Origin: a virus
Reading direction: 5' to 3' (one strand)
DNA length: 27,059 bases
Virus record (IMG/VR): IMGVR_UViG_3300042554_000588
Span: 1 to 27,059 of that record
Positions 3,009 through 26,804 of this stretch are shown here, one piece after another. Under the pieces are notes generated by a model. The model ran no database searches. It was not told the DNA's origin and saw only the letters and a list, made by a program, of their open reading frames with translations. The position numbers were made by a program, and so were the translations under genes. Numbering within the stretch: the first letter of the stretch is position 1; every line of letters begins with the position of its first letter.

Positions 3009-3275
3009 ATGCGGGAACCTCGTGAGTACGAGAACCCGCTATGTGCACAGATAGGTGGAGACTTCTGGTTCCCTGACAAAGAGGGAACAGTAAGTTTCAG
3101 TGAGAGTCAGTATGCGAAATCAATCTGCAAAAGTTGTACTCATAAGATCGAATGCGCTGAGTGGGGAATCCACAAGGAACACTTTGGTATATGGGGTGGG
3201 CTTGCACCACGTGAACGCCTAGCAGTAAGAAGAGTTCGCAGAATAAATCTTGGAGGGGATGAGGAAGTTGCTTGA
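3009..3275 (+). CDS. WhiB-family iron-sulfur transcription regulator
   Basis: 88 residues with C12, C40, C43 and C49 in the Cx(27)CxxCx(5)C layout that binds a 4Fe-4S cluster, then GIWGG (60-64) and a basic tail (RERLAVRRVRR, about 68-78). These are the defining features of Wbl proteins, which bind the host sigma factor and redirect transcription; the family is confined to actinobacteria and their phages. Phage WhiB proteins can interfere with host WhiB regulation and superinfection. It lies 4 bases after the previous gene and overlaps the helicase gene by 17 bases. The main clue to the host phylum. Confidence 0.93.
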   Translation: MREPREYENPLCAQIGGDFWFPDKEGTVSFSESQYAKSICKSCTHKIECAEWGIHKEHFGIWGGLAPRERLAVRRVRRINLGGDEEVA

Positions 3276-22142: not shown

Positions 22143-24836
22143 ATGGCGAAATCGTTAGAGCAAGAAATCCAAGCAGCCAAAGACGCAATAGCAAAGACTA
22201 AGGCTGCAGAGGCCAAGGCTAAAGCAGAAAAAGAAGCAACTGCAAAGAAAGAAGCAGCAGGACGCGCCAAAGCGGAAGCAGAGGCTAGAACTGCAGCACA
22301 GCGCAAGAAAGATGAAGCGCTACTTAATAGTATGATTGCAACTCGCAAAAAGTTGATTCAGTATATTGCTGATCCTAAAACTTCTGCACGTGATCGTGCT
22401 GCAGCAGAGACAAACCTTAAGGGACGCAAAGGTAGTCCTTCTCTTGATGAGAGTATTTCTAAACTTAGTAAGTCACTCAACATTGCTGTTGAGGGTAGCA
22501 AGATTATTAAGCGCCCAATGAGTGTACCTGCTTCTGCTACCTATGATGAGAAGACTAAGACTTGGACTCGTGGTAGCGAGAACTGGGATTCAACAGGCAA
22601 AAGCATCACACCTACCAAGACTGCCACGCCTACTAAAACTGCTACTTCTAGTGGTACAGATACAGGATTAAAAGCAGATCGTACAGCCGCATCTGCTGCT
22701 GCTAAAGCAAAGGCAGACAAGATCAAAGCAGAAGCAGATGCGAAGGCTGCAGCAGATCTTAAAGCCAAACAAGAAGCAGAGGCCAAGGCTGCAGGTGCTG
22801 AGGTTCCATCTGGCTTTAATGTTGGATCTTTCCGTATGGCAGAAGAAGCATCTATGGGTGCTGCAGGATCGAAAACTGCTACAGATGACAAACAACTAAC
22901 TCCATTTGATGAAATCTTAGCCAAGGCAAAAGCAACCTATGGTGATATTGATAGTGTTTTTGATGAAGACCCAGAATTAAAAACACTTCTTCGTGCCGCT
23001 ATTGGTAACGTAGCAGATCCAAATGACGATATGAAGGATTCTGAGTTCCTTAATCGTCTTAAGAATACAACCTGGTGGGCAACTTCAGCAGGTCCTGTAC
23101 GTCAACGTGCATTTGAAAAGCGCCAGTACGAAAGACTTAAGGCTGAGATAGAGAAGAACCCAACTGCTCCTGACTATCAGAAAAAACTTGATAAGTTAAA
23201 TAACGAAAATGCTTATGCTCGTGGTTTGGCTGAGGCTAAGGGTGAGTTGCAACTTGTTGTCAATCAAGAAGGTCTTAATGTAACCGATCAAGAGTTAACC
23301 AATATCGCTGGAGGTCTATATGACCTTGCTAACGAGAAGAGTACTCTTGGTAGATTAGATGCTCTAACACGTTTTGTTACAGCCAATGGACTATCAGAAG
23401 GTCCTACTGGTAAGAACCTGCGTTTGCTTCGTGCTACAGCACGTGCAAATGGTGTGGATCTTAATGAGTTAGCAGGCAAGAACCTTGACTCCTGGCTACA
23501 AAAGATGTTTAAGGGTAAGGATCCTGCAGACTACGAACAGATTATTCGTGATGCAGCAGGACGAGACCAGTCTAAGTATGTAAAAGATTTACTTGCTGCT
23601 GGTACTGATCTACGTGATATCTATGCTCCATTCCTCAGAGAAATGGCTGGTTCGCTTGGCATTACTGACATTAACAGTATTGATCTTAATGACCCATTAC
23701 TTAAGAGTGCTTTTACTGATAAGGGTGCAATCAATACCACTCAGTTCAGAAACCTATTAAGAACTGATACTCGCTTTAAGGGTACACCTGTTGCTATCGA
23801 AGAAGGCAATGTCGAAGCACAGGCACGTCAGCAACTTGCACGTATTGCACAAGACAACGGCTATAACCTTGATGTAGATTTCAAAGATCAGGTCAATGGC
23901 TGGTTAGCACGTATCAGAAACGGTGAGTCTGTTGACCTAGTAGGTCAGGCTATTCGTGATAAGGCTGGAGAAGGCCGTGGAGAGTACGTAGCGGGACTAC
24001 TTAAGAGTGGCTATAACCTTAACGGAATCTACGGCAACTACATCAAACTTATGTCTCAATACTTTAACATTGATCCAGAGACAATTAGTGAGAATGACCC
24101 GCTACTTCAGAAAGTATTTAATGACAAAGGTGGATTAAAGTTTTCTGACTTTGAAGCCTTGCTACGTAGCGATGCTCGTTACAAGGGAACCCAAGCAGAA
24201 GGTCAGCAAAAGGACTTTAGTCAGGCAGTTGCAGATCGTGCCGTTGCATTAGGTGTGGCACTTGCACAAAAGGATGTTGACGAGATTGTCAACAATGCCT
24301 TGGCTATGGGCATCAGTGCAAGTTCATCTCTAGTAGACGGACTTATCCGCGCCAAGTTAACTTACTCTCCAACTGTAGCGCTAGGCGGAGCAGCAGGCGG
24401 CGCACTTGCTCAACTCAAGAAGACTGCTGCTGCTAATGGTCTTGACTTTGATACTCAGTTTGGAACACAAGCACAAACTTGGCTTTCAAAGATTCTTCAA
24501 GGTGAATCACCTGATACGTTTGAGAACGTCATCCGTGAGGCTGCTTCTGCAGGACTACCAGACAACGTTAAGTCGCTATTAAAACTTGGCGTTAACTTAG
24601 ATACAGTCTATGCACCATACAAAAACATTATGGCATCTGTTCTTGAAGTCAATCCAGAAACTATCGGTCTTAACGATAAGACTCTACGTTCTGCTATTGG
24701 CCAGAAAGAAATGACTCTTTACGATTGGGAGCGTTCACTACGCAAAGACCCACGCTGGCAATACACTAATAATGCCCGTCAAGAGGTATCAGGTATCGGG
24801 CTTAATGTTCTACAACAGTTAGGATTCCAGGGATAA
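22143..24836 (+). CDS. Large 897-residue virion-type protein with triplicated helical domain
   Basis: ATG at 22143. Residues 5-65 and 178-220 are Ala/Lys/Glu coiled coils (KAAEAKAKAEKEATAKKEAA), joined by a Thr-rich linker (TPTKTATPTKTATSSGTDTG). The C-terminal half holds three copies of a domain of about 120 residues at 426-548, 562-683 and 755-875, each reading roughly A..NG..L..........WL..I..G......-..IR..A.......V..LL..G..L..IY......M.....I....I..NDP.L...........F...LR.D.R.KGT. A helical module of about 50 residues precedes the first and the third (near 366 and 690). Likely a structural or ejection protein. Function unknown. Confidence 0.8.
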   Translation: MAKSLEQEIQAAKDAIAKTKAAEAKAKAEKEATAKKEAAGRAKAEAEARTAAQRKKDEALLNSMIATRKKLIQYIADPKTSARDRAAAETNLKGRKGSPSLDESISKLSKSLNIAVEGSKIIKRPMSVPASATYDEKTKTWTRGSENWDSTGKSITPTKTATPTKTATSSGTDTGLKADRTAASAAAKAKADKIKAEADAKAAADLKAKQEAEAKAAGAEVPSGFNVGSFRMAEEASMGAAGSKTATDDKQLTPFDEILAKAKATYGDIDSVFDEDPELKTLLRAAIGNVADPNDDMKDSEFLNRLKNTTWWATSAGPVRQRAFEKRQYERLKAEIEKNPTAPDYQKKLDKLNNENAYARGLAEAKGELQLVVNQEGLNVTDQELTNIAGGLYDLANEKSTLGRLDALTRFVTANGLSEGPTGKNLRLLRATARANGVDLNELAGKNLDSWLQKMFKGKDPADYEQIIRDAAGRDQSKYVKDLLAAGTDLRDIYAPFLREMAGSLGITDINSIDLNDPLLKSAFTDKGAINTTQFRNLLRTDTRFKGTPVAIEEGNVEAQARQQLARIAQDNGYNLDVDFKDQVNGWLARIRNGESVDLVGQAIRDKAGEGRGEYVAGLLKSGYNLNGIYGNYIKLMSQYFNIDPETISENDPLLQKVFNDKGGLKFSDFEALLRSDARYKGTQAEGQQKDFSQAVADRAVALGVALAQKDVDEIVNNALAMGISASSSLVDGLIRAKLTYSPTVALGGAAGGALAQLKKTAAANGLDFDTQFGTQAQTWLSKILQGESPDTFENVIREAASAGLPDNVKSLLKLGVNLDTVYAPYKNIMASVLEVNPETIGLNDKTLRSAIGQKEMTLYDWERSLRKDPRWQYTNNARQEVSGIGLNVLQQLGFQG

Positions 24837-26209
24837 TGGCAATAGAAGAAGAAGATTTCTATATCAATGCTGCAGGTAATGTTCCCGCAAAAGACTTTGC
24901 CTACACAATGTCAGAACGCGGTGCTGGTGCTGCTGGTTCAATAGCAGTTCCTTGGGTAAAAACTGGCACAGGTTCAATGAATCTTCCAGAAGATATTCGT
25001 AAATTACTTTACGGTCCTAATGGAGATCCAAGTAAGGCTGCATACGACCCATTTGCAAATGCAACTGGTTATGCAATTGACCCAAAGACTGGCCAAGTAA
25101 TTATTCGTCAAGGCGAAGGTGGAGCATCTTATGTAAGTGCATTCGCTCCAGGTGTTGGAACTGGTACTGCAACAGAAGTTGATTTCAAACTAATAGGTGG
25201 CAAAAAACTTAGTACCAGTACAACTAATACAGCAGGTGGTGGACTAAATTTACCTCCAGGTGTGACGGTTGTTAGCACCTTTTCGGATCCAACAACTGGC
25301 GATGTAACTGCAACACTTTCAGATGGAACCACTAGAATTCTTGCAAAAAGTGGAGCAGATTCTGCAGCAAAAAAGTCTGCCTATGATTTGCTATACCAGC
25401 AATTTAATGACTTAGGTATCGGTGGTCTAGTACCAGAACTTAAGACCTTTATTGAAGAAGGTATCTCTCCATCTGAGTTTACGCTTCGTTTGCGTGGAAC
25501 AGAGGCATATAAGAAGCGCTTTGCTGGCAATGCTCAACGTATTGCTAAAGGTCTTCGTGCCTTGTCAGAGGCAGAGTACATTGGACTAGAAGACCAGTAC
25601 CAGAATGTTATGCGTCAATATGGAATGCCAGAGACTTACTACTCACGTGGTGAGATGGGCCGTCAAGAAGGATTTGAAAAGTTTATTGCTGGAGATGTAA
25701 GTCCAGCAGAACTAGAAGACCGCATCTCAACAGCACAAAAGCGTGTTATGAATGCCAACCCAGAGGTGGCACAAGCGCTCAAGACGTTCTATCCAGGAAT
25801 CTCTAACGGAGATATCTTGGCTTATACACTTGATCCATCAAAGGGTATTGAAGATATCAAGCGCAAGGTAACAGCAGCAGAAATTGGTGGAGCAGCGGCA
25901 CGCTTTGGTTTAACCACTAACGTTGCAAATGCTGAATATCTACGAAACTATGGTGTGACAAAGGAACAAGCAGACCAAGGTTACGCAACTATTTCAGGTG
26001 GACTGCAACGTGGTTCGCAACTTGCCTCAATGTATGGAGAGAGTCCATATACTCAAGCAACTGCAGAGCAAGAAATCTTTAGTGTACCTGGAGCAGCAGA
26101 AGCACGTAAGCAGCGCCAAAAGATTACTGGACTAGAAAAGGCCACATTTGCTGGTCAATCTGGTTTAAGTCAAGGAGCCTTAGTGCGAGATCGCGCTGGC
26201 GCTTACTAA
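24836..26209 (+). CDS. Large 457-residue virion-type protein
   Basis: ATG at 24836, sharing one base with the previous stop. N-terminal 180 residues are Gly/Thr-rich and beta-like (DFKLIGGKKLSTSTTNTAGG; GDVTATLSDGTTRILAKSGA); the rest is helical (LRALSEAEYIGLEDQYQNVM; QYGMPETYYSRGEMGRQEGF; ISTAQKRVMNANPEVAQAL). The E-x-x-Y-...-M-R-Q-Y-G-(M/L)-P-E-x-Y-Y segment recurs in virion proteins of related phages as far as I recall. It is the last large gene before a 127-base spacer with a structured RNA. Function unknown; a partner of the two larger proteins in the virion is likely. Confidence 0.78.
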   Translation: MAIEEEDFYINAAGNVPAKDFAYTMSERGAGAAGSIAVPWVKTGTGSMNLPEDIRKLLYGPNGDPSKAAYDPFANATGYAIDPKTGQVIIRQGEGGASYVSAFAPGVGTGTATEVDFKLIGGKKLSTSTTNTAGGGLNLPPGVTVVSTFSDPTTGDVTATLSDGTTRILAKSGADSAAKKSAYDLLYQQFNDLGIGGLVPELKTFIEEGISPSEFTLRLRGTEAYKKRFAGNAQRIAKGLRALSEAEYIGLEDQYQNVMRQYGMPETYYSRGEMGRQEGFEKFIAGDVSPAELEDRISTAQKRVMNANPEVAQALKTFYPGISNGDILAYTLDPSKGIEDIKRKVTAAEIGGAAARFGLTTNVANAEYLRNYGVTKEQADQGYATISGGLQRGSQLASMYGESPYTQATAEQEIFSVPGAAEARKQRQKITGLEKATFAGQSGLSQGALVRDRAGAY

Positions 26210-26220
26210 ATAAAAGCCTG

Positions 26221-26306
26221 CCAATGGGATGACTGGTCCATTGGAGTGATAACAAAACCAGTAGCAAGAGCCACACTACCTCCCCCAAGGTTACTGTGAG
26301 GCTTGC
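26221..26306 (+). ncRNA. Candidate structured RNA: H-type pseudoknot plus long hairpin upstream of the scaffold gene
   Basis: Stem 1 CCAATGG (26221-26227) / CCATTGG (26238-26244), 7 bp. Its loop is GATG then ACTGGT (26232-26237), which pairs with ACCAGT (26257-26262), 6 bp, across an A-rich 12-base loop (AGTGATAACAAA). This is the H-type pseudoknot layout with no base between the two stems. A second element follows: GCAAG (26264-26268) / CTTGC (26302-26306), then CC/GG, CAC/GTG and CCT/AGG inside, with loop CCCCCA. Together they fill the spacer from 11 bases after the previous stop to 30 bases before the scaffold ATG at 26337. Probably a cis-acting RNA that controls scaffold/capsid synthesis or RNA processing. 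Confidence 0.6.
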
Positions 26307-26336
26307 GTCAATCTAACAAGAATGGGAGAAGGACCT

Positions 26337-26804
26337 ATGTCCAACTATGACTACGAGGATGATGATTTCGACTTGGACTCATCAAGCAATGACCTTGTAA
26401 AACAACTGCGTAAACAACTAAAAGCAAAAGAAAGAGAACTGAGCGAAAAAGAATCTGCTCTAACAAATCTTTCATTAGCGCAACGTGAACGAGCAATCAA
26501 AGACACCCTCGCAAGTCGCGGGGTAAATAGCAAAATTGCTTCATTTATCCCACAGGATATAGACCCAACTGAAGAGTCTGTATCTAAATGGCTAGAAGAT
26601 AATGCCGATGTATTCGGTATCGAACTTAGCCAAAACCAGGCAAGACCTAATGTTAATCCAGCCGATGCTGCTGCATATAAGCGTATGACTAATACTGTCG
26701 AATCAGGATCATCTCCTGAACACAACGACAACATTATGCAGAAACTTATGAACGCTAACAGCAAAGAAGAATTGGATGAAGTTATCAGAATGTCTGGACT
26801 CTAA
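26337..26804 (+). CDS. Scaffold-like protein
   Basis: 155 residues. I chose ATG 26337, with AAGG five bases and GGAG nine bases upstream, over ATG 26322, which lies within that ribosome site. Acidic N-terminus (SNYDYEDDDFDLD), then a charged coiled coil LVKQLRKQLKAKERELSEKE (about 20-39) and a helical C-terminal part (DEVIRMSGL). Length, acidic head, coiled coil and position just before the capsid gene are typical of capsid scaffolds, which guide prohead assembly and are then removed. The HslV-like peptidase at 803 is far away and its link to scaffold removal would be speculation. Confidence 0.8.
   Translation: MSNYDYEDDDFDLDSSSNDLVKQLRKQLKAKERELSEKESALTNLSLAQRERAIKDTLASRGVNSKIASFIPQDIDPTEESVSKWLEDNADVFGIELSQNQARPNVNPADAAAYKRMTNTVESGSSPEHNDNIMQKLMNANSKEELDEVIRMSGL

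Follow-up and report, generated by a model that had tools for sequence, protein, structure and literature searches.

Does the spacer in front of a phage scaffold gene carry an RNA with a role of its own? The question is raised by the IMG/VR virus record IMGVR_UViG_3300042554_000588, whose 27,059 nucleotides, analyzed here as a whole, are referred to as the window. Between the upstream gene p5 and a scaffold-like gene, a domain consisting of an H-type pseudoknot and a hairpin (P3) lies at positions 26217-26307. We regard it as virtually certain that this spacer is a real structured RNA, and as very likely that it acts in cis to control expression of the scaffold gene. On balance, comparison of related sequences favors a cis-acting leader RNA, a gate on the initiation of translation at the capsid scaffold gene.

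Anatomy of the scaffold leader

An earlier note on this DNA had described an H-type pseudoknot with stems of 7 bp and 6 bp, an L1 of 4 bases, no base between the stems and an A-rich L3 of 12 bases, and every part was found where it had been placed. The hairpin of about 13 pairs that it set beside the knot also exists, though not as a plain stem: it is built of 4 bp, a 2-nt GA bulge, GCC/GGC, an opposite 2-nt bulge, 3 bp and a variable apical stem. Likewise, the proposed extent of 26221-26306 holds for the core, while the conserved unit is wider and takes in the CCUG at 26217-26220 on the 5' side and, on the 3' side, the Shine-Dalgarno (SD) sequence at 26324-26328 and the start-codon hairpin at 26331-26342. 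The features are as follows.

24836-26209, + strand: p5, upstream virion-module gene (phrog_8424); stop codon 11 nt ahead of S1
26217-26220, + strand: CCUG directly 5' of S1; CCU invariant in clade A, not retained in that form in clade B
26221-26227, + strand: S1 5' arm, CCAATGG; two-sided changes in 5 of 7 S1 pairs in clade A
26228-26231, + strand: L1, GATG
26232-26237, + strand: S2 (pseudoknot) 5' arm, ACTGGT; core CYGG/CCRG with compensatory changes
26238-26244, + strand: S1 3' arm, CCATTGG; no base between it and the S2 5' arm
26245-26256, + strand: L3, AGTGATAACAAA, A-rich, 12 nt, crosses S1
26257-26262, + strand: S2 (pseudoknot) 3' arm, ACCAGT
26264-26306, + strand: P3 hairpin; GCAA/TTGC, GCC/GGC, ACA/TGT, variable apical stem
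26268-26269 and 26298-26299, + strand: P3 bulges, 5' GA and 3' GA
26281-26288, + strand: P3 apical loop, TCCCCCAA, C-rich, complementary to GGG in the SD
26307-26323, + strand: A-rich single-stranded linker ahead of the ribosome-binding site
26324-26328, + strand: SD, GGGAG; GGGAG or GGGTG in 229 of 229 relatives
26331-26342, + strand: predicted start-codon hairpin, GGAC-CTAT-GTCC, surrounding the ATG at 26337-26339
26337-26804, + strand: scaffold-like gene (phrog_7813), constant downstream partner of the RNA
26837 onward: major capsid gene (phrog_1357), after the scaffold-like gene

The scaffold start is at 26337; an ATG at 26322 is not conserved. The two outermost pairs of S2 are present in the window and not conserved across the family. 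When the spacer was shuffled 20,000 times with dinucleotides approximately preserved, 8 shuffles contained a perfect H-type knot (7+6 bp) with this geometry. The knot at 26221-26262 is the only perfect one found when both strands of the 27-kb window were scanned. The best candidate for a second copy of the element within the window was a 9.6-bit chance match. Single-sequence minimum free energy folding of the spacer gave no signal (z = -0.36); such folding misses the pseudoknot because a nested fold cannot hold one. The evidence for the pseudoknot is comparative, drawn from aligned relatives, rather than from single-sequence folding.

Conservation and distribution of the RNA

Two protein scans of IMG/VR yielded 160 loci, with both flanking genes present in 155 records, the window included, and 123 distinct spacers among them. 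The layout is kept in all 123. Their common plan begins with (G/A)CCURC, S1, a short L1, the S2 5' arm, the S1 3' arm, an A-rich loop and the S2 3' arm, and continues with AG, the bulged hairpin P3, an A-rich linker, GGGAG and the start codon. Covariation was counted on MAFFT alignments that had not been fitted to the structure. For 42 diverse members of the window's clade (clade A), 92.8% of cells pair, compared with 80.9% in shuffles and 27-38% when partners are slid, and two-sided changes occur in 16 of 24 pairs, including four in the pseudoknot helix S2. P3 contributes 96.8% paired cells and two-sided changes in 7 of 11 pairs. The replacements are visible by eye in S1, which reads CCAATGG/CCATTGG, CCACTAG/CTAGTGG, CTAACGG/CCGTTAG or CCTTGAG/CTCAAGG in different clade A phages. 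A covariance model built from clade A with the S2 pairs left out (R1) matches 27 of 27 further clade A elements, each directly upstream of the scaffold gene.

The RNA occurs at the same place in a second group of phages, clade B, in which the scaffold is about 36% identical. R1 detects it upstream of the scaffold at all 38 clade B loci (E of about 1e-13 to 3e-8), and in this clade's own alignment 95.4% of cells pair, with two-sided changes in 15 of 27 pairs. Ahead of S1, clade B has AGAAUC in place of the CCUG conserved in clade A. The cultivated Planktophila phage E7 (OX376640; PMC10202952) belongs to this RNA-bearing clade, and its complete 39-kb record holds one confident copy.

Some observations concern the hosts. 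The window encodes a WhiB-like protein at 3009-3275, which marks the virus as an actinophage and agrees with its Planktophila phage relatives. A contig listed under an Actinomycetota metagenome-assembled genome (L563; RHAS01000055.1) is a clade B phage fragment, to judge from its scaffold gene and leader RNA. A search for a host origin in 248 genomes of that assembly's order returned only the same phage contig and two weak, short matches at chance level.

A third group, clade C, consists of Streptomyces phages (Beephvirinae) whose capsid protein is 54-57% identical across roughly 70% of its length and whose scaffold is a remote homologue (97.3% hhalign probability, 23% identity). Where p5 would end, these phages have an array of 14-21 tRNA genes, followed by a spacer of about 115 nt before the scaffold. 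This spacer runs S1, S2, A-rich loop, S2' and a P3 with the GA bulge and GC/GGC. Across 22 sequences 98.4% of cells pair, S2 reaches 100%, and two-sided changes are found in 18 of 28 pairs. Paired substitutions, which the earlier note had asked to be sought in related spacers, are therefore found in three clades, and the pseudoknot and P3 can be taken as established by comparison of these sequences. The RNAs of clades A/B and C are probably, though not certainly, homologous. Because R1 misses clade C and the clade C model, R2, misses clades A and B, common ancestry rests on layout, position, the GA-bulge and GC/GGC motif, and protein homology.

The tRNA arrays span 257-2328 in L564 and 79-1324 in L565, with the last tRNA abutting the pseudoknot. 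Freshwater relatives have no tRNAs at the gap between p5 and the scaffold gene, and the window has none.

In pattern scans made without regard to genes, 240 loci were recovered, of which 228 have the scaffold gene, p5 or both beside the match; the remaining 12 are chance matches rich in GC. The RNA goes with the scaffold gene and not with the gene upstream, as clade C exchanges its upstream neighbor for a tRNA array and the RNA stays. Comparison thus shows the RNA to be linked exclusively to the scaffold gene and to occur once in the complete phage record that was searched. Residence at the scaffold leader alone is a feature expected of a P22-like autogenous scaffold operator.

Among more distant capsid-gene relatives, the element was not shown in Bacillus phage Pony or podovirus MW202801. 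The latter has a terminator-like hairpin at the corresponding spot. In the spacer ahead of Pony's putative scaffold gene (L604, 806-925), CGAC/GTCG and TGAG/CTCA might form a short H-type knot, and a TTTTCC/GGAAAA hairpin adjoins the SD; this weak knot-like pattern may be due to chance.

Proposed contacts with the ribosome-binding site

Two further features link the RNA to the start of the scaffold gene. The start codon is enclosed by complementary arms, which are GGAC/GUCC with 3-7 bases between them in clade A, GUUGCU-AUG-AGCAAC in clade B and GUUGC-UAUG-GCAAC in L300 and L360. A stem of at least 4 bp surrounds the scaffold start in 45 of 47 unique contexts of clade A and 12 of 12 of clade B, compared with 13-15% when the upstream bases are shuffled, with the caveat that equally stable predicted hairpins overlap the starts of a few other genes in the window. 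Comparison establishes this hairpin too, and to judge from its arms it is re-made with different sequences in different clades; in clade C none was seen by eye. As its second codon the scaffold gene has TCC (clade A) or AGC (clade B), each a minority serine codon in the gene. At the major capsid start, considered as a second gated gene, a stem was found in 6 of 104 cases, no more than expected by chance.

The second feature is the loop of P3, which contains CCCC in 229 of 229 parsed relatives. In clade C the loop is CCUA(G/A) and is complementary to the (C/U)UAGG of the SD in 40 of 40 sequences; one pair varies and is seen as G-C, G-U and A-U. In clades A and B the match between loop and SD averages 3.77 bp and is not longer than the 3.42 bp obtained with shuffled loops of the same C-rich composition; in clade B it amounts to 3 bp only. 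A kissing contact between loop and SD is a hypothesis suggested by these complementarities.

The start-codon hairpin and the SD-complementary loop lend independent support to one of the roles the earlier note had offered, control of scaffold translation, in the form of control at initiation, and we judge it somewhat probable that control acts at this step. In the proposed mechanism, the compact domain formed by the pseudoknot and P3 directly upstream would set the opening of the ribosome-binding site. In the closed state, the C-rich P3 loop would kiss the SD and the start codon would be held in its own small hairpin; together, these two contacts would give the ribosome-binding site its closed state. 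We infer the kiss, the switching between states and the direction of control from this arrangement. The likeliest purpose would be to match the output of scaffold, and perhaps capsid, to assembly, and a gate on the scaffold gene may also be felt by the capsid gene behind it. A candidate trigger is binding of the domain by free scaffold or coat protein, in the manner in which the P22 scaffold is said to repress its own synthesis. That either protein is the ligand is a tentative guess. Annotation and the predicted model of the scaffold protein revealed no known RNA-binding domain and no obvious RNA-binding fold. The model shows one long helix (15-60) and, after it, small helices, with a mean pLDDT of 69, a predicted fold that is typical of phage scaffolds.

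A nucleotide-level signal of another kind lies inside the scaffold gene (26337-26804), where codons of about 70-80 show very strong synonymous conservation across 294 relatives; the most fixed are Gln73 CAG (1.0), Pro77 CCA (0.98) and Thr78 ACT (0.99). This block is perhaps an internal promoter or an RNA element for the capsid gene.

The main rival to a translational gate is an element that forms or protects an mRNA 5' end, the knot blocking 5'-to-3' decay (RNase J) or marking a cleavage site, with the result that the scaffold-capsid segment of a long late transcript outlasts the segment upstream. Such an element would be well placed, since output should step up between the minor virion genes and scaffold plus capsid. 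In clade C the 3' end of the final tRNA in the array of 14-21 is where the knot starts, and maturation of that end would place the knot close to the 5' end of the scaffold mRNA. At the 3' end of p5 no promoter-like site was found, nor did its last 150 codons show synonymous conservation of a kind that would suggest a promoter. We nevertheless consider this explanation unlikely, as it does not account for the start-codon hairpin, the loop-SD complementarity or the strict tie to one gene. The same two contacts bear on the more doubtful idea of a translation enhancer or ribosome standby site, in which the domain would hold the A-rich linker and the SD accessible and attract ribosomes for abundant scaffold production: the conserved single-stranded linker between P3 and the SD and the need for many scaffold copies would suit it, whereas a hairpinned start codon and an SD-complementary loop are features of repression rather than enhancement.

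A structured RNA within a long late gene module could also promote transcription antitermination, like HK022 put, with RNA polymerase running through the late operon. This seems improbable for an RNA that is fixed to one internal gene rather than to the operon start and whose conserved candidate contacts are with the ribosome-binding site. The earlier note's further suggestion of readthrough regulation, to which pseudoknot-stimulated frameshifting of the upstream gene may be added, is rejected, even though the pseudoknot lies 5-14 nt past the stop codon in clade A. Spacer lengths are spread evenly modulo 3 (43/42/38), the frame after the p5 stop ends at 0-42 codons and is not conserved, and clade C has tRNAs where the upstream gene would be.

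Relation to known systems and significance

Searches of Rfam (Rfam 15) with clades A, B and C gave no match at the gathering threshold or at E <= 10 other than tRNAs, and no earlier description of the element was found in the open literature searched. These results agree with the earlier note, which knew of no named phage RNA of this layout. The RNA is a family absent from Rfam, of a known kind, the phage leader operator. For example, in phages T4 and RB69 the gene 32 operator consists of an H-type pseudoknot that lies in the leader ahead of the SD, serves autogenous repression and is followed by an unstructured UUAAA-rich stretch (PMC535899). Both it and the scaffold leader place an H-type pseudoknot in a phage leader 5' of the ribosome-binding site of a heavily used gene. 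The T4 knot is about 28 nt and its ligand is gp32, while the scaffold leader has a larger knot, a bulged hairpin between knot and ribosome-binding site, and a start-codon hairpin. Positions 26263-26336 lack the UUAAA/UAAA repeats of the T4 operator and hold a structured hairpin instead. The T4 operator controls the single-strand-binding protein that binds it, whereas the downstream gene here is scaffold-like. The missing UUAAA repeats and the different ligand weigh against membership in the gene 32 type, not against a similar way of working.

Other RNAs share single traits. H-type topology with an A-rich loop is also found in preQ1 and SAM-II riboswitches and in pistol and HDV-like ribozymes, pistol also having a following hairpin; the scaffold leader differs in being phage-only, tied to the scaffold gene and without an Rfam match at E <= 10. 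The coat-protein operator of MS2/R17 likewise holds a phage start codon within a small hairpin. It is a single hairpin, whereas the start hairpin here is accessory to a domain of 85-90 nt and a protein ligand is only a candidate. Closest in the gene concerned is P22, whose scaffolding protein reportedly autoregulates its own synthesis (the work of Wyckoff and Casjens in 1985). The likeness is that, in a tailed phage, control of scaffold synthesis is exerted at the scaffold's own gene; for the present RNA, regulation is a proposal only. To our knowledge, no covarying RNA operator has been defined for the P22 scaffold, and we know of no defined RNA operator for scaffold autoregulation.

How tailed phages set the proportion of scaffold to coat is a long-standing question, and a covarying RNA fixed to the scaffold gene bears on it. 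Its carriers infect bacteria that rank among the most abundant in fresh water, the lake Actinobacteria, and apparently also include related soil phages of Streptomyces. Cultivated members are available for direct testing, among them Planktophila phages E7 and F5 and Streptomyces phages such as Manuel, FlowerPower and JXY1. It is possible, though we hold it with little confidence, that the domain serves as a sensor of assembly. Free scaffold or coat protein would then bind the pseudoknot and P3 and lock the ribosome-binding site through the kiss and the start hairpin, so that scaffold synthesis would track procapsid assembly. If this reading is true, tailed phages would have a defined RNA operator for capsid scaffolding, one old enough to be common to freshwater Nanopelagicales phages and Streptomyces phages alike.
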